Part shown: piece after piece, positions 3,648-13,037 of the stretch
Layout: every line of letters begins with the position of its first letter
How positions within the stretch are numbered: position 1 is the first letter of the stretch
Assembly (NCBI GenBank): GCA_019309545.1
Contig: JAFDGA010000015.1
Span: 1 to 45,815, forward strand
DNA from: Deltaproteobacteria bacterium
GTDB lineage: Bacteria; Desulfobacterota; Desulfobaccia; Desulfobaccales; Desulfobaccaceae
Direction of reading: 5' to 3'
DNA: 45,815 nt
The notes under the pieces: model-generated
Database searches by the model: none
What the model saw: the letters and a program-made list of their open reading frames with translations, nothing else
Told to the model about the DNA's origin: nothing
Made by a program: the position numbers and the translations under genes

Positions 3648-5063
3648 ATGGCTCACGAGGCCGTACTGGTGGTCGATGATGAGGCCGCCATCCGCAGAGC
3701 GCTCAGCGAACTTTTAGATGCCGAGGGCTACGAAGTGGAGACCGCCGCGGACGGCGAGATCGCCTTACAAATGCTTCAGGAACGAGTCTACGATCTGGTA
3801 TTAGCCGACCTTTTCCTGCCCAAACTGGACGGCATGGAGATCTTGCAATACCTAGTACAACACGCCCCGGAGACGGTCTGCATCATCATCACCGGCCATG
3901 GCACCATCCCTAACGCCGTTGCCGCCATGCGTTTAGGGGCTTATGACTACCTGTGTAAGCCCATCGAAAGCGACGCCCTCCTGATGGTCTTAGACCGGGC
4001 CCTGGAACACCGCCGATTGAAAGAAGAAAATATTAGACTGAAGAAACAGCTTAAGAAAAAATACGGGTTTGATAATATTGTCGGCATTAGTGAGGCAATT
4101 TATAAAATTTTTGATATTATTCGCAAGGTCGCTGACACCGACAGCACAATTTTGCTTCTCGGGGAATCGGGTACCGGCAAAGAACTCATTGCCCGCGCCA
4201 TCCATTATAACAGTGAACGACGGGAAGGCCCGCTGATTGCGGTAAATTGTGCGGCGATTCCGGAAGAACTGCTGGAAAGCGAATTGTTCGGCCACGAACG
4301 GGGAGCCTTTACTCATGCGATTCGGACCCGCTACGGGCGTTTCGAGCAGGCTAACGGCGGCACTATCTTCCTCGATGAAATCGGGGACATGAGCCCCAAC
4401 CTCCAAGTGAAGATCAATCGGGTATTACAGGAACATCAGTTTGAGCGCATCGGCGGACTCAAACCCATCAAAGTCAATATCCGGGTTATTGCCGCCACCA
4501 ATCAGGATCTGGAAAAGTTGGTCCAACAGGGACGGTTTCGGGAGGACCTTTATTACCGACTTAACGTAATTCCCATCAAGATTCCCCCTTTACGAGAGCG
4601 AACCAGTGACATCCCGTTGCTGGTAAAACATTTCTTGAATGAATTTTCAGCCAAAAAGGCAAAAAAGGTCAAAGGCTTCACCCCCGAGGCGATGAATCTG
4701 TTGGTGCAATATTCCTGGCCAGGAAACGTCCGAGAGTTGGAAAACCTGATGGAGCGACTGGTTATTTTAGCCGACCGCGAGATTTTGGAGGTCTCGGACC
4801 TGCCTGAGCGCTTCTTGACCCCTGCCAAAGAAAACCACGTGCTCCCCCTGGATATCCCAGAGGAGGGCATTCAATTAAATGAGGCGGTGTCCGAATTCGA
4901 GCGGCAGTTGATCATTCGGGCCCTAAACAAGACCGGCTGGGTCAAAAACCAGGCTGCCCAACTCCTGCATCTTAACCGGACTACCTTGATTGAAAAGATC
5001 AAAAAACAAAAGATCAGCAAACCCGGTGAAGTCCCCTCTGATTTAACCGTCAAACTTATCTGA
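3648..5063 (+). CDS. Sigma-54-dependent response regulator (NtrC family) with GAFTHA loop
   Basis: Cytoplasmic transcription activator of 471 aa. The receiver domain is residues 1-120, with phospho-acceptor Asp54, Thr82 and Lys104. The AAA+ domain (about 143-375) has Walker A GESGTGKE (172-179) and Walker B GGTIFLDEIG (237-246). A Fis-type helix-turn-helix ends the protein (NQAAQLLHLNRTTLIEKIK). The loop that contacts sigma-54, normally GAFTGA, reads GAFTHA (219-224), so the second Gly is replaced by His223. The start is supported by CGGAGGA just upstream. No histidine kinase gene is adjacent, so it is an orphan regulator here. It precedes the Fwd/Hdr-like cluster on the same strand, but I found no -24/-12 promoter in front of that cluster, so a regulatory link is only a possibility. 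Confidence 0.95.
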   Translation: MAHEAVLVVDDEAAIRRALSELLDAEGYEVETAADGEIALQMLQERVYDLVLADLFLPKLDGMEILQYLVQHAPETVCIIITGHGTIPNAVAAMRLGAYDYLCKPIESDALLMVLDRALEHRRLKEENIRLKKQLKKKYGFDNIVGISEAIYKIFDIIRKVADTDSTILLLGESGTGKELIARAIHYNSERREGPLIAVNCAAIPEELLESELFGHERGAFTHAIRTRYGRFEQANGGTIFLDEIGDMSPNLQVKINRVLQEHQFERIGGLKPIKVNIRVIAATNQDLEKLVQQGRFREDLYYRLNVIPIKIPPLRERTSDIPLLVKHFLNEFSAKKAKKVKGFTPEAMNLLVQYSWPGNVRELENLMERLVILADREILEVSDLPERFLTPAKENHVLPLDIPEEGIQLNEAVSEFERQLIIRALNKTGWVKNQAAQLLHLNRTTLIEKIKKQKISKPGEVPSDLTVKLI

Positions 5064-5196: not shown

Positions 5197-5243
5197 TATA
5201 CTTCTCTTTATTGGCGATAATGGCGCTGAGCTTTGAGAACCAC

Positions 5244-6536
5244 ATGGCAGAAGTGATCGAATCAGTTATCTGCACGGGTTGCGGTTGTTTATGCGACGAT
5301 CTGGACGTCACGCTCGAAGGCAATCAGATTATCGAGGTGGCCAATGTCTGTCTCTGGGGGGTCAACAGATTCATTGCCAGCAAAAAATTCCATTCCAAAA
5401 AGGACCGCCGCCGCATCCTTTCCCCGCAGCTCCGACGCAAAGGGCGGGCCATGGCGGTATCTTACGAATCCGCCTTGGAAGAGGCCGCCAATATTTTAGT
5501 CCAGGCCCGCCGTCCCCTGATCTATGGCCTTACCAATAATGGTTCCTGGGCCCAGGAGGCGGCCCTTAAACTGGCCTGTCGCTGGCAGGCCCGGCTGGAA
5601 CCGGCGGATCTGCCTTTTATGGCCCCCTATTTTGAGGCTCTGAGCAATCATGGGCTATACTGGACGCCTTTGGAAGAAATCCGGGATGAGGCAGATACCA
5701 TCTTATTCTGGGGGGGCAACCCGATACATTCCTGCCCCCGGCATGTGGTGCGCTATTCGGTGTTTAGCCGGGGGCGGTTCATCGAACGCGGAATAGAAGA
5801 ACGACAGGTAGCCGCCGTGGATATCTATCCCACCGAGACCGCCAAATTCTGTAAGCCTTTCATCCAAATCGACCCGGGACAGGAACTGGATCTGATCAAG
5901 GGGGTAATCGCTGCCTTGACCGATGGATCAGACCCCCCGGCCCGGATTAAAGGAACCCGGAAGCTGGCTAAGTTGCTCTCCGAAGCCAGCTATGGGGTGA
6001 TCTTTGTGGGCCGCGGGGCTAGCTACGGTCCGGCCCGAGAACTTCTCGATCACCTGGCCCGGCTGGTCGTCTGGCTCAATAAGCGGGTGCCATTTACCTT
6101 GTTTCCCCTGGCCAGCGATTTCAATGCCAGCGGCCTTTATCAACTGCTGCTGCGGGAAACCGGCAGTCCCTACGCCCCAGATTTCGGGGACTCCTCGGGT
6201 TTTGCCAGTCATTCTGTCCGGGTGGACTTGCGCGAGGTGGACGCTTTGCTGGTAACCGGCGCTGATCTGTTCTGGTTTTTACCCGAGGACCAGGCCCAGG
6301 AGCTCAAACGCCGGCAGGTGCCGATTGTGGCTCTGTCCCCCTTTGCCAACCGGACCACGGCCCAGGCCCAGGTAGTGTTTCCTGTAGCCTTGGCCGGCAT
6401 TGAAACCGAAGAGATCGCCTATCGCATGGATGGCCTACCGGTGGAATTACCCAGGCTGATTTCCAGCCGTTTCCGGTCTGACCACCAGGTTCTGGCAGAC
6501 CTGGAACAGGCTCTGACCGGTAGGTCAAGAGATTAA
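5244..6536 (+). CDS. FwdB-like protein (formylmethanofuran dehydrogenase subunit B homologue), metal ligand missing
   Basis: About 430 aa, close to the length of archaeal FwdB, a molybdopterin-family catalytic subunit. Cys10, Cys13, Cys17 and Cys36 reproduce the FwdB N-terminal [4Fe-4S] spacing (CTGCGCLCDD, then NVC). Later blocks also match, for example FWGGNP, PRHVVRYSVFSRG and the C-terminal ETEEIAYRMDGLPV. By my remembered alignment, archaeal CHGP, which contains the W/Mo ligand Cys/Sec, corresponds here to Phe125-Met-Ala-Pro128 with no gap up to the next conserved block. The pterin metal ligand is therefore probably absent, and no FwdD (rest of the pterin site) or FwdC follows. I start at 5244 because that places the first Cys where the family has it; ATG 5220 and TTG 5211 are alternatives. 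First gene of the cluster. Confidence 0.85.
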   Translation: MAEVIESVICTGCGCLCDDLDVTLEGNQIIEVANVCLWGVNRFIASKKFHSKKDRRRILSPQLRRKGRAMAVSYESALEEAANILVQARRPLIYGLTNNGSWAQEAALKLACRWQARLEPADLPFMAPYFEALSNHGLYWTPLEEIRDEADTILFWGGNPIHSCPRHVVRYSVFSRGRFIERGIEERQVAAVDIYPTETAKFCKPFIQIDPGQELDLIKGVIAALTDGSDPPARIKGTRKLAKLLSEASYGVIFVGRGASYGPARELLDHLARLVVWLNKRVPFTLFPLASDFNASGLYQLLLRETGSPYAPDFGDSSGFASHSVRVDLREVDALLVTGADLFWFLPEDQAQELKRRQVPIVALSPFANRTTAQAQVVFPVALAGIETEEIAYRMDGLPVELPRLISSRFRSDHQVLADLEQALTGRSRD

Positions 6537-6599
6537 ATATTGCATGTTTTTCAAGCTGACTGACTTTACTCATATGAGCCTTAAAAGGAGGATGTAGCA

Positions 6600-7127
6600 A
6601 TGACTGAAACCACCGGAACAAATCCTGTGGTGCGCCTGGAGACGACTATGGGGCCGATTAAAGCGGAATTATGGCCTGATAAAGCCCCTATAACGGTGGC
6701 CAATTTTTTGACCTATGTCAAAGAAGGGTTTTATGACGGCCTCATTTTTCACCGGGCCACTCCCATGTTTATGGTGCAAACCGGCGGTTTTGAGCCGGGC
6801 ATGGTCTATCGGCCGCCGACGCACCCGCCGATTGATAATGAAGCGGCCAACGGTGAGAAGAACAAACGGGGTACTCTGGCAATGGCCAGGGCTTTTCCCA
6901 TTAAAAGCGCCGCGGCCCAATTCTTTATTAATCTAGTCGATAATCCGAAACTGGATCATAAGGGGCCTGAGCCACAAAACTATGGCTATGCCGTGTTTGG
7001 CCAGGTCATTGAGGGCATGGGAACGGTGGAACGGATGACCACGGTCAAGTTAACGGTTCGGGAAAACCATAAAGATGTCCCCCTGGAAGATATCAAGCTT
7101 ATCCGGGCTATAGTAGAGCAAGAGTGA
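6600..7127 (+). CDS. Cyclophilin-type peptidyl-prolyl cis-trans isomerase
   Basis: Cytoplasmic prolyl isomerase of 175 aa with no signal peptide. The cyclophilin core is visible: FHRATPMFMVQTGGF carries the catalytic Arg and the Gln/Gly pocket. It is followed by RGTLAMAR, AAAQFFINLVDNPKLD and YAVFGQVIEGM. It is preceded by a strong AAAGGAGG ribosome site. It lies between the fwdB-like and fwdA-like genes on the same strand, with gaps of about 60 and 80 bp. That placement could mean help in folding the complex or could be accidental. No active-site loss is evident. Confidence 0.93.
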   Translation: MTETTGTNPVVRLETTMGPIKAELWPDKAPITVANFLTYVKEGFYDGLIFHRATPMFMVQTGGFEPGMVYRPPTHPPIDNEAANGEKNKRGTLAMARAFPIKSAAAQFFINLVDNPKLDHKGPEPQNYGYAVFGQVIEGMGTVERMTTVKLTVRENHKDVPLEDIKLIRAIVEQE

Positions 7128-7210
7128 TCCGGAGGGCCGTGGGAACCTTGTCTGAGCTATCCCGGGGCCAATAATAACAGGTACGGTTCTTTTAATGAAA
7201 ACCAAAAGTT

Positions 7211-8587
7211 ATGATGCGTCTCAAAATTGCTCAAGGTCGCCTGTATGATCCCACCCAGGGTTGGGAGGGGGAGGTGGGAGATCTTTATGTCGAGGGAGAT
7301 CGCATCGTTGCTCCCCTACCAGAAGTAGATCGAGTCATCGATGCTCAGGGACAGATGGTGGTAGCCGGGGGGATTGAGCTGCGCGGCCAGGTCGCCACTT
7401 ATGGCCTGAATTATTTACGTTTGTGGGGCTTGTTGCCATCTGCCCGGGAAATCGGCGAATTATATGCCTCACTGGGATTTACTCATGTCCATGAGCCCTT
7501 TTTGACCTTATATACCGCTAAGTATACCCATCGTGAACTGGCAGCGCTGCCGGTAGTTGACACTTCGGCATCCTTAACCCTGAATATCCGCGACCTGGAT
7601 AAATGGCTACGATTACCGGAACAATTAGGCGAGGTGGGTCAGAACCTGCAATTTTTGTTGGAGCAGACCCGTTCCCTGAACCTGCGGATCATGGAGCCGT
7701 ATGTCCGCTTCCGGCAAGACTATTTTGCGCATCGGAACATCCGCACCGAGGAAATTCTGGAGATTCTGGCCACACTGGCGCAGTCGCATAACCTTACCCT
7801 GACTCTGGAGGCCAGTCCGGGGATTATACGCCTGCCACTACCAGCGCCAACCGCATTCCATCTTGCCGCTCTGGGTCCGGCCCTAATTGAAGATGATCTG
7901 GTCGAGGCAACCCTGGGACATCTGGAAAAAGGAACTACGGTGGATTTAGGACTGATGCCACCGAAAGGTTCACAGAATTTTGCCAACCTGCCGGTTCAGA
8001 TCAATCTGGGATTCTTTCATCCTTTAAACCTTTGTCCCCCCCATTCCCCGGCCGCGGCTCAGCGGGCTTTAGTTCTGGCCTTGAAATATCAAGGGACAAA
8101 TCTGGCCTTTTCCGGCGCGGGCTCCTTCCTGACCCCAATAAGTCAATATTCTCGGATCTTTTCGTGGCTGGCAGACCAGGGCGCCCGTCGGCAGGATTGG
8201 GGAGACAGCCTGCCTTCCCGTGAATATTCGCTGGCCGAATGGGTCAGGATGACGCGGACCTTACCGGCCCAACTATTAGGTCTTACGGAGCGCGGCCATC
8301 TCGGTGTCGGGGCTCGGGCTGATATCGCCGTCTATGACCTGCCCGGAGCCGATAAACGGATCAATTGGGGCCAGTCCTTGAGCCGTTGCCGGTTTTTGCT
8401 TAAGGCCGGGGAAACAGTGATCGATAATTTTAATCTGGTAAAGCCTGAAATCTCCAAGGCTACCTATTATCTTCAGACCGGCATCGAAGCCAGTCCCTGG
8501 CTAAAGGAGGTTTGTCAATATCGCAGTTTTCGTCTGGAAAACCTCTGGGTTCATGACCACCTAGGGAACCACTGGATAGGGATCTGA
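7211..8587 (+). CDS. FwdA-like amidohydrolase-fold protein with degenerate metal site
   Basis: About 458 aa, shorter than archaeal FwdA (about 570 aa). Family blocks are recognisable: GGIELRGQVA near 53-62, THVHEPFLTLYTAKYTHREL, and the C-terminal LLGLTERGHLGVGARADIAVYD. In FwdA the dinuclear metal site uses an HxH, a carboxylated Lys, further His residues and an Asp. Here the HxH positions are Arg58 and Gln60. The Lys of IKLVNP is Arg in LRIMEP, the HLHCNN block is TLTLEA, and the TDHPNG block is FSGAGS. These pairings are my manual alignment. Hydrolysis of formylmethanofuran is therefore unlikely, and a scaffold or altered role is more plausible. The start is uncertain by one codon (ATGATG). 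Its stop lies 2 bp before the next gene. Confidence 0.82.
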   Translation: MMRLKIAQGRLYDPTQGWEGEVGDLYVEGDRIVAPLPEVDRVIDAQGQMVVAGGIELRGQVATYGLNYLRLWGLLPSAREIGELYASLGFTHVHEPFLTLYTAKYTHRELAALPVVDTSASLTLNIRDLDKWLRLPEQLGEVGQNLQFLLEQTRSLNLRIMEPYVRFRQDYFAHRNIRTEEILEILATLAQSHNLTLTLEASPGIIRLPLPAPTAFHLAALGPALIEDDLVEATLGHLEKGTTVDLGLMPPKGSQNFANLPVQINLGFFHPLNLCPPHSPAAAQRALVLALKYQGTNLAFSGAGSFLTPISQYSRIFSWLADQGARRQDWGDSLPSREYSLAEWVRMTRTLPAQLLGLTERGHLGVGARADIAVYDLPGADKRINWGQSLSRCRFLLKAGETVIDNFNLVKPEISKATYYLQTGIEASPWLKEVCQYRSFRLENLWVHDHLGNHWIGI

Positions 8588-8589
8588 TA

Positions 8590-9045
8590 ATGGCCACGGT
8601 CGAGGAAGTCCTGGAATTTCTCCCCCGCACTGATTGTGGACAGTGTGGCATGACCTGTGCTGAATTCGCCGCTCTTTTGGTGTCGAGGGATTTATCCCCG
8701 GAAGACTGTCCGGTGCTGCATGAACCCGATTATGCCGGATATATCGAGGCCCTCCATGAGATCCTTGGGCCAGCCGAAGCGGCTCCGACCGCGGGGATGC
8801 TTATTGACCAGGACAAATGCAATGGCTGTGGCATCTGTGTGGCAGTATGCGAATATCACTTGGGCAACTGTGATGAGGCCCGTTTAGGCCGGGGTCCCCG
8901 ACCTCAGGATAAGGTAGTTTTCCATGTGGTCAATGGCACGGTGGTGGTGGTCCACCAGGATCTTTGTTCCCGCTTAATCCAAGCTGCCGAAAGGTGCAAC
9001 AAGTGCGCCGACCATTGCCCGGTCGGAGCCATCACCTTGTTTTAA
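8590..9045 (+). CDS. Iron-sulfur protein: PF04060-type [4Fe-4S] domain plus ferredoxin domain
   Basis: Electron carrier of 151 aa. The N-terminal module resembles the 4Fe-4S domain (PF04060) also seen in corrinoid/acetyl-CoA-synthase and RnfB proteins, with Cys16, Cys19, Cys23 and Cys40. The first gap is C-x2-C-x3-C rather than the more usual x4. The C-terminal part is a two-cluster ferredoxin: Cys77, Cys80, Cys83, Cys87, and Cys126, Cys136, Cys139, Cys143 (CNGCGICVAVC; CNKCADHCPVGAI). The start is 2 bp after the fwdA-like stop, so translation is probably coupled. It occupies the position where FwdF/FwdG polyferredoxins occur in archaeal operons. I infer that it passes electrons between the Fwd-like and Hdr-like proteins. 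Confidence 0.85.
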   Translation: MATVEEVLEFLPRTDCGQCGMTCAEFAALLVSRDLSPEDCPVLHEPDYAGYIEALHEILGPAEAAPTAGMLIDQDKCNGCGICVAVCEYHLGNCDEARLGRGPRPQDKVVFHVVNGTVVVVHQDLCSRLIQAAERCNKCADHCPVGAITLF

Positions 9046-9059
9046 ATTTAGGGATCAAC

Positions 9060-9551
9060 ATGGCTGAGACCTTAGATATTCAAGCTCTGGACCCGCATTT
9101 TAAAGATGAGGTGGCCCAGGAACCCGGATGCGAGCATCTGCTGCGCTGCTTTTCCTGTGGGGTCTGTACCGCTACCTGTCCGGTTAGTGAGATCGAGCCC
9201 AGCTTTAGTCCCAGCCGGATTATCAGGCAGGTCCTTTACGGTCTGCGAGAGCCGCTCCTCTCCTCCCCGGCCCTCTGGTATTGTGCCCGTTGTGCCAATT
9301 GCTCTTTTCAGTGCCCTCAGGATGTCAGGTTTTTGGATATTATACAGGGTTTGCGGAATATGGCCCGGCGTAGCGGCCAGATTAGCGAGGAGCGGGCTGC
9401 CCAGCTGGCCCGGGGCGAGGAGTTGATTCAGGAACTCAGGCGGCGATTCATAGCCGCCATCCTTTCCGGACCTAAGGAAGCAGAAGATCTCAAGGCCACC
9501 CTGATCCAACTGGCCTCGGAATTGGACATCAATGAAGGAAAGGAGCCGTAG
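9060..9551 (+). CDS. HdrC-like iron-sulfur subunit
   Basis: 163-aa homologue of heterodisulfide reductase subunit C (also QmoC/GlpC-like), an electron-transfer subunit with two [4Fe-4S] clusters. Both cysteine sets are complete: Cys30, 33, 36, 40 (CFSCGVCTATCP) and Cys75, 78, 81, 85 (CARCANCSFQCP). There is no membrane segment, so unlike QmoC it is soluble. I start at the ATG 9060, 15 bp after the previous stop; the longer frame overlaps that gene and adds nothing conserved. HdrC normally pairs with HdrB, whose CCG-motif cysteine domains are not found in this window, so the terminal acceptor is unclear. Confidence 0.93.
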   Translation: MAETLDIQALDPHFKDEVAQEPGCEHLLRCFSCGVCTATCPVSEIEPSFSPSRIIRQVLYGLREPLLSSPALWYCARCANCSFQCPQDVRFLDIIQGLRNMARRSGQISEERAAQLARGEELIQELRRRFIAAILSGPKEAEDLKATLIQLASELDINEGKEP

Positions 9552-9557
9552 ACTTAC

Positions 9558-12500
9558 ATGGCCTGGATCCGGCCATTAGAGCGAGTCGTCAGTCCGCGGG
9601 TGCTGGTTGTCGGCGGGGGCATCGCCGGCATGCAGGCCGCCCTGGATGTGGCCAAGGTAGGGCTACCAGTGACGCTGGTCGAACAAGGCCCTTCCATCGG
9701 CGGACTTATGGCCCAACTGGACAAAACTTTCCCTACCAACGATTGTGCCATGTGTATTCTCTCCCCCCGCATGCTGGAGATCGCCCGCCACCCCTTGATT
9801 GAGATTCTGACCTTGACCCAGGTCGTGCAAATCCAGGGAAGGCCCGGAGATTTTCAGGTAGTTTTATGCCGTCGGCCGCGTTTTGTGGACCTCAGCAAAT
9901 GTTCTGGGTGTGGAGAGTGTACCCGGGTCTGTCCCCGCCGCATCCCGGACCCCTATAATCTGGGTCTCAACCAGACCAAAGCTATCCATGTGCCCTTTCC
10001 TCAGGCGGTCCCATTAGCCGCTTATATCATACCCGAAGCCTGCCGTTATTTTGAGGGCAAGAAATGCGAAGCCTGCATCAAGGTTTGCCAGGCCGGAGCC
10101 ATTGATCTTCATCAGACCCCAGAAATTTTGGTTCAGCAATTTGGGGCTGTCATCCTGGCCACCGGGGTTGGCGTAGCCCCGGCGGATAATTTTCCGGGTT
10201 ATGAAAACCCTGACGTGGTCACCAGCCAGGAATTTGAACGCCTCCTGAGCGCCACCGGTCCGCATGCCGGGAAGTTGCTGCGGCCTTCCGATCAGACCCC
10301 ACCAGGCCGCATTGCCTTTATTCAATGCGTCGGCTCCCGCGACCCCAGAGAAGGAGTAGCCCACTGTTCGGCCGTATGTTGCATGGCCAGTCTCAAAGAG
10401 GCACTGGTGGCCAAAGAGATCAGCGCCACCGAAGTTCAGGCGACCATCTTTTATATGGACATCCGAACCCATGGCAAAGGCTTTGAACGTTACCTGCAAC
10501 AGGCTCAAGACCATGGCGTGCAATTAATCCGCTCCCGGGTGACGGCCGTTGGTCCCCGGCCTCAAGGTGGCGTGGTGATCCGCTATACCGACCCCGGCGG
10601 GCGGCCCGATGAAGACTCGTTTGATCTGGCCGTGTTGGCGGTGGGTTTAAGGCCAACGGCAAGTTCCAGACAATGGGTCCGCCGGTTGGGAATGGGTCTC
10701 AATGAATCCGGCTTTATCAAGACCTCGCTCCTGGTTCCAACCACTACAGAGCGGGAAGGAGTATTTATCTGTGGTACGGCCAGTGGGCCCATGGATATCC
10801 CCGAAGCGGTTACGTCGGCCAGTGCCAGCGCCGCCGCGGCTTCACAATTATTGACCCTAGGTGTACGGACCCGGCCTGCTAAAGCCAAATTGCCCGGACC
10901 CCGCCGTGTTGCTGATTATCCTCCCCGGATCGGAGTTTTTCTCTGCCATTGTGGCACCAATATTGCCAAAGTTATCGATATCGGAAAATTAGCCACGGCG
11001 GTTGAAAAGCTGCCCGCTGTGGTCCATGTCGAAGACAACCTGTTTACCTGTTCGGTTGATTCTACCAAGCGGATGAGCGAAACCATCCGGGATTTAGGAC
11101 TCAATAGGGTCGTGGTGGCCGCTTGCACCCCCCGGACCCACGAGGTGGTATTCCGGGAGGTCCTGGCTGAGGCCGGCCTTAATCCGGGCTATTTTGCCTT
11201 TGCCAATATCCGGGAACAGTGCTCCTGGGTGCACCAGGATGACCAAGCCGCAGCCCTTCATAAGGCCGAACACGTGGTGGCCATGGCCGTCGGTCGAGCC
11301 TGGATGCTGACCCCGATTCAACCCCAAGGCTTCCCGGTGAATCCCAAGGCCCTGGTCCTGGGAGGCGGGGTGGCTGGGATGAGTGCGGCCCTGACATTAG
11401 GCGATCAAGGATTTCACACTTATTTGCTGGAGCGCAGCCGAGATTTAGGAGGAATAGCGCGACAATTACATTTCACCTTGGAAGGCGCAGACCCGCAAAA
11501 GTTTTTACAGGAACTGAAGGCCGAAGTCTACCGCCATCCCAATGTTGAGGTCTTAACCCAGACCGAAGCGGTTCAGGTTAATGGGCATGTCGGGCAATTC
11601 CAGACCTTGGTGCGCCAACAAACCGCGGCGGGACCGCTGAAACGTTGGTTGGATCACGGAGTTACGATCGTGGCCACCGGAGGTAGAGTATTTAATCCCC
11701 AGGGGCGCTATCTTTACGGCACCGACCCGCGCATTCTCACCCAACTGGAGTTGGAGGCCCGGATTAAGGCTAATGATCCCCAGTTGGAAAAGGTCCGGCA
11801 GGTGGTGATGATCCAATGTGTGGGCTCTCGAGAACCCGAACATCCCTATTGCAGCCGGATCTGTTGTTCTGAGGCCCTAAAAAACGCCCTCCTGTTAAAA
11901 GAGCGCTATCCTTTGACAGAAGTCATGATTCTTTATCGAGATCTCCGGGCTTATGGCCTCCAAGAGATTTATTATCAAGATGCCAAACAGCAGGGTGTGG
12001 AGTTTATTCCCTTTGACCCGAAACGACCCCCACAGTTAGAGATTACCAAACGCCGGCAACTCAAGCTCTTAATCAGGGATGAACTCCTGGACCAAGAACT
12101 GAGCCTGAGCGCCGATCTGGTGATCTTGAGTGTCGGGATTGAGCCGGCGGTAGGCAGTGACCAAGTAGCCCGACTCCTGGGACTATCCCAGACCCTGGAA
12201 GGTTTCTTCCTGGAGGCCCATCAGAAATTGCGTCCTGTCGATGTGATTAGCGAGGGCATCTTTTTGTGCGGCCTGGCCCATTATCCCAAGACCCTGGGAG
12301 AAACGGTAGCCCAGGCCCAGGCCGCGGCCATCCGCGCTGCCAGTATTTTGTTTCAAACCGAACTGCTCAGTGGTGAGATGGCCGCCTCGATTACTACCGG
12401 CAAATGCCGACGCTGTCTGCACTGTCTGGAAGTGTGCCCCTTTAAAGCGGTGGGGCTGGAGGCTAACGGTAAACCTACGATCCAAACCGAAGTCTGTCAG

Positions 12501-12605
12501 GGCTGCGGAATTTGCGCCTCTGAATGTCCGGCTGAGGCCATTCAGATGAGCCGCATTTCCGATGCGGAATTGGAGGCCCAGATCGATGCGGCTTTAATGG
12601 CCTGA
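9558..12605 (+). CDS. Large HdrA-like flavoprotein with two FAD modules
   Basis: 1015 aa, about twice the core HdrA/QmoA unit. Module 1 (about 1-450) has Rossmann motif VVGGGIAGMQAA (18-29), the family pair Cys63/Cys66, a ferredoxin set at Cys115, 118, 121, 125, and Cys162, 170, 173, 177. Module 2 starts near 455 with the canonical HdrA N-terminal domain (FLCHCGTNIA, FTCSVDS, ACTPRTHE, REQCSWVH). A second FAD domain follows (LGGGVAGMSAAL, about 599-610), and the C-terminal 2[4Fe-4S] ferredoxin lies near 949-995. HdrA is the flavin subunit that bifurcates electrons in methanogens, and Qmo proteins serve sulfate reduction. The N-terminal half resembles QmoA and the rest canonical HdrA. The ATG lies 6 bp after hdrC. 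Predicted cytoplasmic. Confidence 0.95.
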   Translation: MAWIRPLERVVSPRVLVVGGGIAGMQAALDVAKVGLPVTLVEQGPSIGGLMAQLDKTFPTNDCAMCILSPRMLEIARHPLIEILTLTQVVQIQGRPGDFQVVLCRRPRFVDLSKCSGCGECTRVCPRRIPDPYNLGLNQTKAIHVPFPQAVPLAAYIIPEACRYFEGKKCEACIKVCQAGAIDLHQTPEILVQQFGAVILATGVGVAPADNFPGYENPDVVTSQEFERLLSATGPHAGKLLRPSDQTPPGRIAFIQCVGSRDPREGVAHCSAVCCMASLKEALVAKEISATEVQATIFYMDIRTHGKGFERYLQQAQDHGVQLIRSRVTAVGPRPQGGVVIRYTDPGGRPDEDSFDLAVLAVGLRPTASSRQWVRRLGMGLNESGFIKTSLLVPTTTEREGVFICGTASGPMDIPEAVTSASASAAAASQLLTLGVRTRPAKAKLPGPRRVADYPPRIGVFLCHCGTNIAKVIDIGKLATAVEKLPAVVHVEDNLFTCSVDSTKRMSETIRDLGLNRVVVAACTPRTHEVVFREVLAEAGLNPGYFAFANIREQCSWVHQDDQAAALHKAEHVVAMAVGRAWMLTPIQPQGFPVNPKALVLGGGVAGMSAALTLGDQGFHTYLLERSRDLGGIARQLHFTLEGADPQKFLQELKAEVYRHPNVEVLTQTEAVQVNGHVGQFQTLVRQQTAAGPLKRWLDHGVTIVATGGRVFNPQGRYLYGTDPRILTQLELEARIKANDPQLEKVRQVVMIQCVGSREPEHPYCSRICCSEALKNALLLKERYPLTEVMILYRDLRAYGLQEIYYQDAKQQGVEFIPFDPKRPPQLEITKRRQLKLLIRDELLDQELSLSADLVILSVGIEPAVGSDQVARLLGLSQTLEGFFLEAHQKLRPVDVISEGIFLCGLAHYPKTLGETVAQAQAAAIRAASILFQTELLSGEMAASITTGKCRRCLHCLEVCPFKAVGLEANGKPTIQTEVCQGCGICASECPAEAIQMSRISDAELEAQIDAALMA

Positions 12606-12617
12606 ACCGGAGGGAAA

Positions 12618-13037
12618 ATGATACGAGAAAGTTATTGTGGCCTGTGCGATGACTGTCAGTTAGGGAACCGTGATTTCCTAGAGAGCGTCGCTCAGTTGAA
12701 GGAATATGTAGATCAGTTCCGGGCTGACTGGTGGGTGCATTGTTTTCCCGATGGAGAGGGATTCAGTTTTGCTGAATTTCGCAAAGGTATCAACTGGTTT
12801 TTGTCACATACGGAATGCCCCGGGTGCAAGGGCGGACGAGGATTAGAAAATTGCCCCATCCGCATCTGTGCCCGGCAGCGTCATATCGAGCACTGCTACG
12901 AATGCCCGGACCTCAAAGGCTGTGACAAATTCGATCACCTCCTCATTGAATTTCCGGACCTAAAAATTAATCTCCTGCGGCGCCAGTTAAAGTATAAAGC
13001 ATGTCAGTACCATCGGCACCTGGACCAAGCCAAGTAG
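12618..13037 (+). CDS. DUF3795 cysteine-rich protein
   Basis: 139-aa protein of the DUF3795 family, function unknown. It has the family pattern YCGLCDDC at the N-terminus and CPIRICARQRHIEHCYECPDLKGCDKF in the C-terminal half, with thirteen or so cysteines that could bind metal or a cluster. A GGAGGG ribosome site precedes the ATG, and the gene begins 12 bp after hdrA, so it is the last member of the cluster. The context suggests a role in maturing or regulating the iron-sulfur complex, but nothing in the sequence proves it. Confidence 0.85.
   Translation: MIRESYCGLCDDCQLGNRDFLESVAQLKEYVDQFRADWWVHCFPDGEGFSFAEFRKGINWFLSHTECPGCKGGRGLENCPIRICARQRHIEHCYECPDLKGCDKFDHLLIEFPDLKINLLRRQLKYKACQYHRHLDQAK

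Follow-up and report, generated by a model that had tools for sequence, protein, structure and literature searches.

The window analysed here, a stretch of 45,815 nt read on the forward strand of contig JAFDGA010000015.1 (assembly GCA_019309545.1), comes from a genome (G000) that belongs to the family of Desulfobacca, a sulfate-reducing bacterium. A row of genes on one strand (Table 1) encodes a FwdB-like subunit (FwdB'), a peptidyl-prolyl isomerase, a FwdA-like protein (FwdA'), an iron-sulfur protein (FeS protein), an HdrC-like subunit, a double HdrA and a DUF3795 protein. A gene for an NtrC-type sigma-54 activator (3648-5063) closely precedes FwdB' in the same orientation, and the region upstream of FwdB' was therefore searched for a sigma-54 promoter; none stood above chance (192 matches in the window versus 195 expected).

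Table 1. Coordinates of the genes and codons discussed in the text (window positions)
Feature	Position	Strand	Evidence or remark
FwdB-like subunit (FwdB')	5220..6536	+	start ATG 5220 or 5244; TIGR03129 E 3.6e-93; PDB FwdB 5t5i_B E 8e-63
Cyclophilin-type peptidyl-prolyl isomerase, between FwdB' and FwdA'	6600..7127	+	PF00160; in some Desulfobaccales only
FwdA' pseudo-amidohydrolase (main finding)	7211..8587	+	TIGR03121 E 1.1e-38; FwdA structures matched by sequence; model and fold matches
Codons R58 to Q60, replacing H57 and H59	7382..7390	+	
Codon G65, replacing formate-gate Lys64	7403..7405	+	Gly in all short FwdA' sequences examined
Codons H92 to H94, HxH on strand beta-2	7484..7492	+	both His invariant in ligand-lost lineages
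Codon R159, replacing carboxylysine K178	7685..7687	+	
Codon E200, replacing H231 (beta-5 end)	7808..7810	+	
Codon A220, replacing H271 (beta-6 end)	7868..7870	+	
Codon A303, replacing D385 (beta-8 Asp)	8117..8119	+	
FeS protein: PF04060 Fe-S domain (residues 11-42) and FwdG-like two-cluster ferredoxin (residues 73-150)	8590..9045	+	Pfam; PDB
HdrC-like subunit, two [4Fe-4S] motifs	9057..9551	+	TIGR03290 E 2.5e-21
Double HdrA, 1015 aa, two flavin halves, type II-like	9558..12605	+	K409/E356 equivalents in both halves
DUF3795 protein	12618..13037	+	PF12675 E 5.6e-10; next after double HdrA in most Desulfobaccales

FwdA' comprises 458 amino acids counted from the ATG at 7211. It matches TIGR03121 in its N- and C-terminal blocks with 132.8 bits, below the NCBIfam equivalog cut-off of 392.75 bits, and the solved FwdA/FhcA chains are also matched by sequence. 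An AlphaFold model built from an alignment of 21 relatives (pLDDT 88.2, pTM 0.90) finds its best solved fold match in FhcA (6s6y_E), with Z 38.2 and 448 of 458 residues aligned. Since the FhcA/FwdA structures as a group are matched with Z 36-38 (rmsd 2.5-2.8) across 448-454 of the 458 residues, the FwdA-type amidohydrolase fold is kept over the full length of the protein. The next family in the fold search is dihydroorotase with Z 27, and a generic amidohydrolase was ruled out on this difference. The model and the C-terminal TIGR03121 block agree with an earlier note on this DNA, which had proposed that the overall FwdA fold and the C-terminal signature are retained.

For FwdA of M. wolfei we take the metal ligands, as is usual in the amidohydrolase family, to be H57, H59, K178, H231, H271 and D385; the numbers were obtained by counting on the printed sequence, and H57, H59, K178 and D385 were mapped onto FwdA' by sequence. 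The [Zn-Zn] centre of FwdA is coordinated by four His, one Asp and one carboxylysine, and the formate-gate residue is Lys64 (PMC11656701). None of the six ligands is present in FwdA', where the corresponding positions are R58, Q60, R159, E200, A220 and A303, all of them inside 7360-8140. The earlier note had read the HxH pair as Arg58/Gln60, the carboxylated Lys as Arg and the His- and Asp-bearing blocks as substituted; the HxH pair is exactly as it stated, and the other positions turned out to be R159 for the lysine and E200, A220 and A303 for the two blocks.

Among 395 sampled genomes of the phylum, 31 match the family profile (E 1e-25); they belong to Desulfobaccales (f1, f2) and to four further lineages, designated f40, f13, f3 and f71. 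The genes for FwdB', FwdA' and the FeS protein adjoin one another in all these lineages, in differing order. After the trio come HdrC, double HdrA and DUF3795 in almost every Desulfobaccales locus whose flank is long enough; one locus (L068) has an unrelated gene after HdrC. The fullest order, found in f71, is HdrA, HdrA, FwdB', FwdA', FeS protein, HdrC and double HdrA. On the other side of the trio f40 carries two HdrA-type genes, one of them fused to an MvhD domain, and no Hdr genes were seen beside the trio in f13 and f3. In one f40 locus (L071, 10851-13355) FwdA' is followed by a protein that has both prismane/CO dehydrogenase and CODH_A_N domains. Five Desulfobaccales genomes with a completeness of 90% or more (G005, G014, G015, G016 and G023) gave no match to the family, so the module is dispensable in those genomes. 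A scan of genome contigs with the single FwdA' protein gave no match; the spread outside the phylum rests on one scan of genome contigs with an alignment query, which returned 21 loci, all from MAGs titled Desulfobacca, Syntrophobacterales/Syntrophales, Desulfobacterales, Deltaproteobacteria or simply bacterium.

FwdB' scores just under the TIGR03129 cut-off; the position of Cys118, the W/Mo ligand, is occupied by F/M (LPFMAPY), and the four cysteines for [4Fe-4S] are kept. The same combination occurs in FwdB' of every member of the short family covered at this position, f40 and f71 included. With the FwdA' ligands lost and FwdB' devoid of Cys118, the earlier claim that both active sites of the pair are altered holds. 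FwdB' of one Desulfobaccales MAG (G011, L098:6812-6814) contains an in-frame TAG with the alignment running on both sides of it, either a sequencing error or early decay, and one f40 genome (G133, C67:7535-8746) has a second FwdB-type gene, above the TIGR03129 cut-off, away from the trio. The C-terminal part of the FeS protein finds its best solved matches among FwdG-type proteins (9sfi_U, E 1e-8; 5t5i_G, E 1e-6). Two HdrA halves make up the double HdrA, and the N-terminal domain is missing from the first of them. It has been reported that K409 and E356 are the key residues for bifurcation and that type II HdrA is defined by two thioredoxin-reductase domains (PMC12054007); in each of the 11 double HdrAs checked, both halves carry the two residues.

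The six MAG genomes of f40, a subsurface lineage, encode a short FwdA-like protein which is 33-34% identical to the FwdA' of the window and is adjoined by FwdB' and the FeS protein, the same gene trio as in the window. All six ligands are kept in five of these six relatives, and the remaining one (L073) has Gln in place of H271. The model of f40 FwdA matches FhcA with Z 38.0, and the gate position is Gly here too. Because these relatives from the same subfamily keep the ligands, the loss in FwdA' is neither chance nor an artefact of alignment. In a tree of 35 rows (midpoint root; L076 and L138 flagged as long branches) f40 groups with canonical FwdA (99/96), opposite the ligand-lost lineages. 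Ligands have been lost in Desulfobaccales, f13, f3 and f71, with leftovers that differ by lineage: both beta-1 His are kept in one f3 row (L076), the beta-6 His is kept in f13, and f71 has, in order, A/C, H, Y/F, P, R and R/Q, retaining the second beta-1 His. In Desulfobaccales the loss is near total but not absolute, since the first His persists in L062 and the D385 column is occupied by Asp in L064. K178 and H231 are absent from all four ligand-lost lineages, as is D385 apart from the Asp in L064. The loss is stepwise and in part repeated. The ligand-complete f40 protein with the same gene trio would make up, together with FwdA', a before-and-after pair for the passage from a formyl-handling enzyme to an electron-transfer scaffold.

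FwdC gave weak matches only, none above cut-off, in the window genome or in the other module genomes; Ftr/FhcD was not found in the window genome and, among 18 genomes searched, occurs in two f34 genomes only, and 17 of the 18 have formate-THF ligase. With FwdC and Ftr missing and formate-THF ligase present, a methanofuran route is unlikely in the window genome. Neither FwdD nor an FdhB F420 subunit domain was detected among the operon proteins (5220-13037). The two f34 genomes (G229 and G271, loci L077:5345-6979 and L078), from the same phylum, encode a canonical FhcA with all ligands, an FhcB with the equivalent of Cys118, FwdC and Ftr, and this bacterial set looks catalytic.

The apparent absence of a metal site might in principle come from misalignment, some ligands being shifted in the sequence with the old site still there. 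One full alignment set H231 on H217, which made the mapping of H231 and H271 ambiguous, and the assignment to E200 and A220 was therefore based on strand positions in the models and on the ligand-complete relatives. In two AlphaFold models beta-5 spans residues 196-200 and beta-6 residues 215-219; E200 closes beta-5 and A220 directly follows beta-6, each one residue on from H199 and H219 of f40. H217 is placed inside beta-6, three residues ahead of the ligand position, and was judged off-site; five ligands would be missing even if it were counted. At the level of fold matches and strand positions, to which the superposition suggested in the earlier note was confined, no shifted but intact ligands are seen, and we consider misalignment very improbable. 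That FwdA' is a decaying pseudogene is hardly credible. The lost ligands, the freely variable D385 position and the in-frame TAG in FwdB' of the G011 relative might be read in that way, but the FwdA' matches have no internal stops and the gene order is conserved. Moreover, dN/dS of FwdA' is 0.16-0.36 for pairs of Desulfobaccales, at up to 27% protein divergence; these values, well below 1, contradict decay in the lineage of the window. For f40 pairs dN/dS is 0.13-0.21. It follows from the Desulfobaccales values that the gene is kept under purifying selection; together with the intact frames they rule the pseudogene out.

Among 16 Desulfobaccales, with a protein median entropy of 1.31, four of the former ligand sites fall below the median (mostly R, 0.99; Q/P, 0.90; R/S, 0.70; mostly E, 0.67), A220 is near it (1.42) and A303 well above it (2.09), so that the D385 site drifts and the four conserved sites have settled on new residues. 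Fair conservation at the former active site, which the earlier note proposed to check, is found for R, Q or P, R and E but does not extend to A220 and A303. One guess is that a salt bridge between R159 and E200 has replaced the metal; the pair is common, but L069 and L070 have S and E. The four conserved sites and the near-invariant H92, H94 and E162 are at least as compatible with a pocket that has been retained as with a passive scaffold. It is conceivable, though rather unlikely, that the site has moved and that FwdA' binds a metal or another ligand through H92 and H94 with E162, H217 or D245, in a new catalytic or cofactor role. H94 is His in every ligand-lost sequence of Desulfobaccales, f13, f3 and f71, versus Asn in f40 and F/M in canonical FwdA; H92, Thr in canonical FwdA, is invariant together with G65 across the rows of the short family examined, and E162 is invariant outside f3, a pattern that amounts to a correlation. 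Yet H92 coexists with the intact old site in f40, H92 and H94 sit midway along a long strand (residues 90-98) and not clearly at the barrel mouth, E162 is replaced by Phe in f3, and H217 is variable in f13. A refitted barrel, in which the zinc site was abandoned, H92/H94 and E162 form a new putative metal or cofactor site and FwdA'/FwdB' perform new chemistry as an electron-handling module on the double bifurcating HdrA, is in our view unlikely. Neither do we put much trust in FwdA' and FwdB' being assembly factors or chaperones for an Hdr complex instead of its stable subunits, which we rate as quite improbable: a peptidyl-prolyl isomerase gene does separate FwdB' from FwdA' in several Desulfobaccales, but many loci are without it, and the four cluster cysteines of FwdB' and its FwdG-like ferredoxin partner are those expected of an electron-transfer subunit.

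We consider it probable that FwdA' derives from a FwdA-type amidohydrolase and is now a subunit without catalytic function, and that the dead FwdA/FwdB core serves an Hdr-type bifurcating complex as its scaffold and as a conduit for electrons. From the linkage of their genes, FwdB', FwdA', the FeS protein, HdrC and the double HdrA may form one soluble complex. FwdA' would brace FwdB' and serve for assembly and docking, not as a formyl hydrolase, and electrons would pass to or from the bifurcating flavins through the [4Fe-4S] cluster of FwdB', the FwdG-like clusters and HdrC/HdrA. The lack of catalysis, the shared complex, the electron route and the scaffold role are all what we infer; it looks as though an ancient enzyme complex has been put to new use as an electron-transfer scaffold. 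The f13 and f3 trios without Hdr neighbours and the five near-complete genomes without the module speak against this reading. Of the earlier description of a pseudoenzyme kept for structure, the first half is supported by the fold and the ligand loss, and the second is plausible, qualified by the conservation of the new residues and by the beta-2 HxH. The change in FwdB that the note mentions is indeed there, but a simply broken Fwd complex does not fit the missing FwdC/Ftr and the partnership with a FwdG-like ferredoxin, HdrC and double HdrA. On the scaffold reading, the dead scaffold subunits of Hdr complexes, so far represented by FwdB-like proteins, would also include FwdA and would occur in bacteria that lack a methanofuran route. 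It is also a warning that annotation in these genomes is poor ground for inferring formylmethanofuran dehydrogenase.

In the open-licence literature we found no report of a FwdA pseudoenzyme or of a FwdB-like/HdrA operon in Desulfobacterota. Earlier cases of dead subunits are known among FwdB-like proteins: FhcB, a FwdB-type subunit without the W/Mo ligand, serves as a scaffold in Fhc (PMC10100899), and archaeal clusters combine type II HdrA with a molybdopterin-fold protein lacking Cys118, for which a structural role has been proposed (PMC12054007). With archaeal FwdA/FmdA (5t5i, 7bkb, 8rja) FwdA' shares a near-full-length fold, the N- and C-terminal signatures and FwdB and FwdG-like ferredoxin partners, but it is about 110 residues shorter, lacks the dinuclear-metal ligands and the Lys64 gate, and is encoded in a genome without FwdC/Ftr. 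The Fhc complex of methylotrophs (6s6y) likewise contains a FwdB-type subunit without the W/Mo ligand, and its FhcA is the closest structural match; however, FhcA and FhcD are catalytic there, whereas here FwdA' is ligandless, FwdB' keeps its [4Fe-4S] cysteines and FhcC/FhcD are missing. The type II HdrA - Molybdop - FdhB clusters of ANME and methanogens resemble the present locus in a double HdrA with both pairs of bifurcation residues and an adjacent Cys118-less molybdopterin-fold protein (PMC12054007); the present one is bacterial, adds FwdA' and the PF04060/FwdG-like protein, and has neither an FdhB domain nor HdrB in the operon. The putative complex is best regarded as a type II-like HdrA to which a dead Fwd core is attached; it would be the bacterial counterpart of the HdrA-Molybdop clusters of archaea, extended by a FwdA subunit. 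In the Fdh-Hdr-Fmd supercomplex of Methanospirillum hungatei (7bkb) Fwd-type subunits are also linked with Hdr, here by genes, but the Fmd part works there, and in the present case neither active site should work, to judge by the residues. Human CRMPs (4b3z, 4cnt), non-enzymatic relatives of dihydropyrimidinase, are pseudo-amidohydrolases which have the amidohydrolase barrel in common with FwdA' but differ in family and partners, with Z about 24 versus 38 for FwdA/FhcA.
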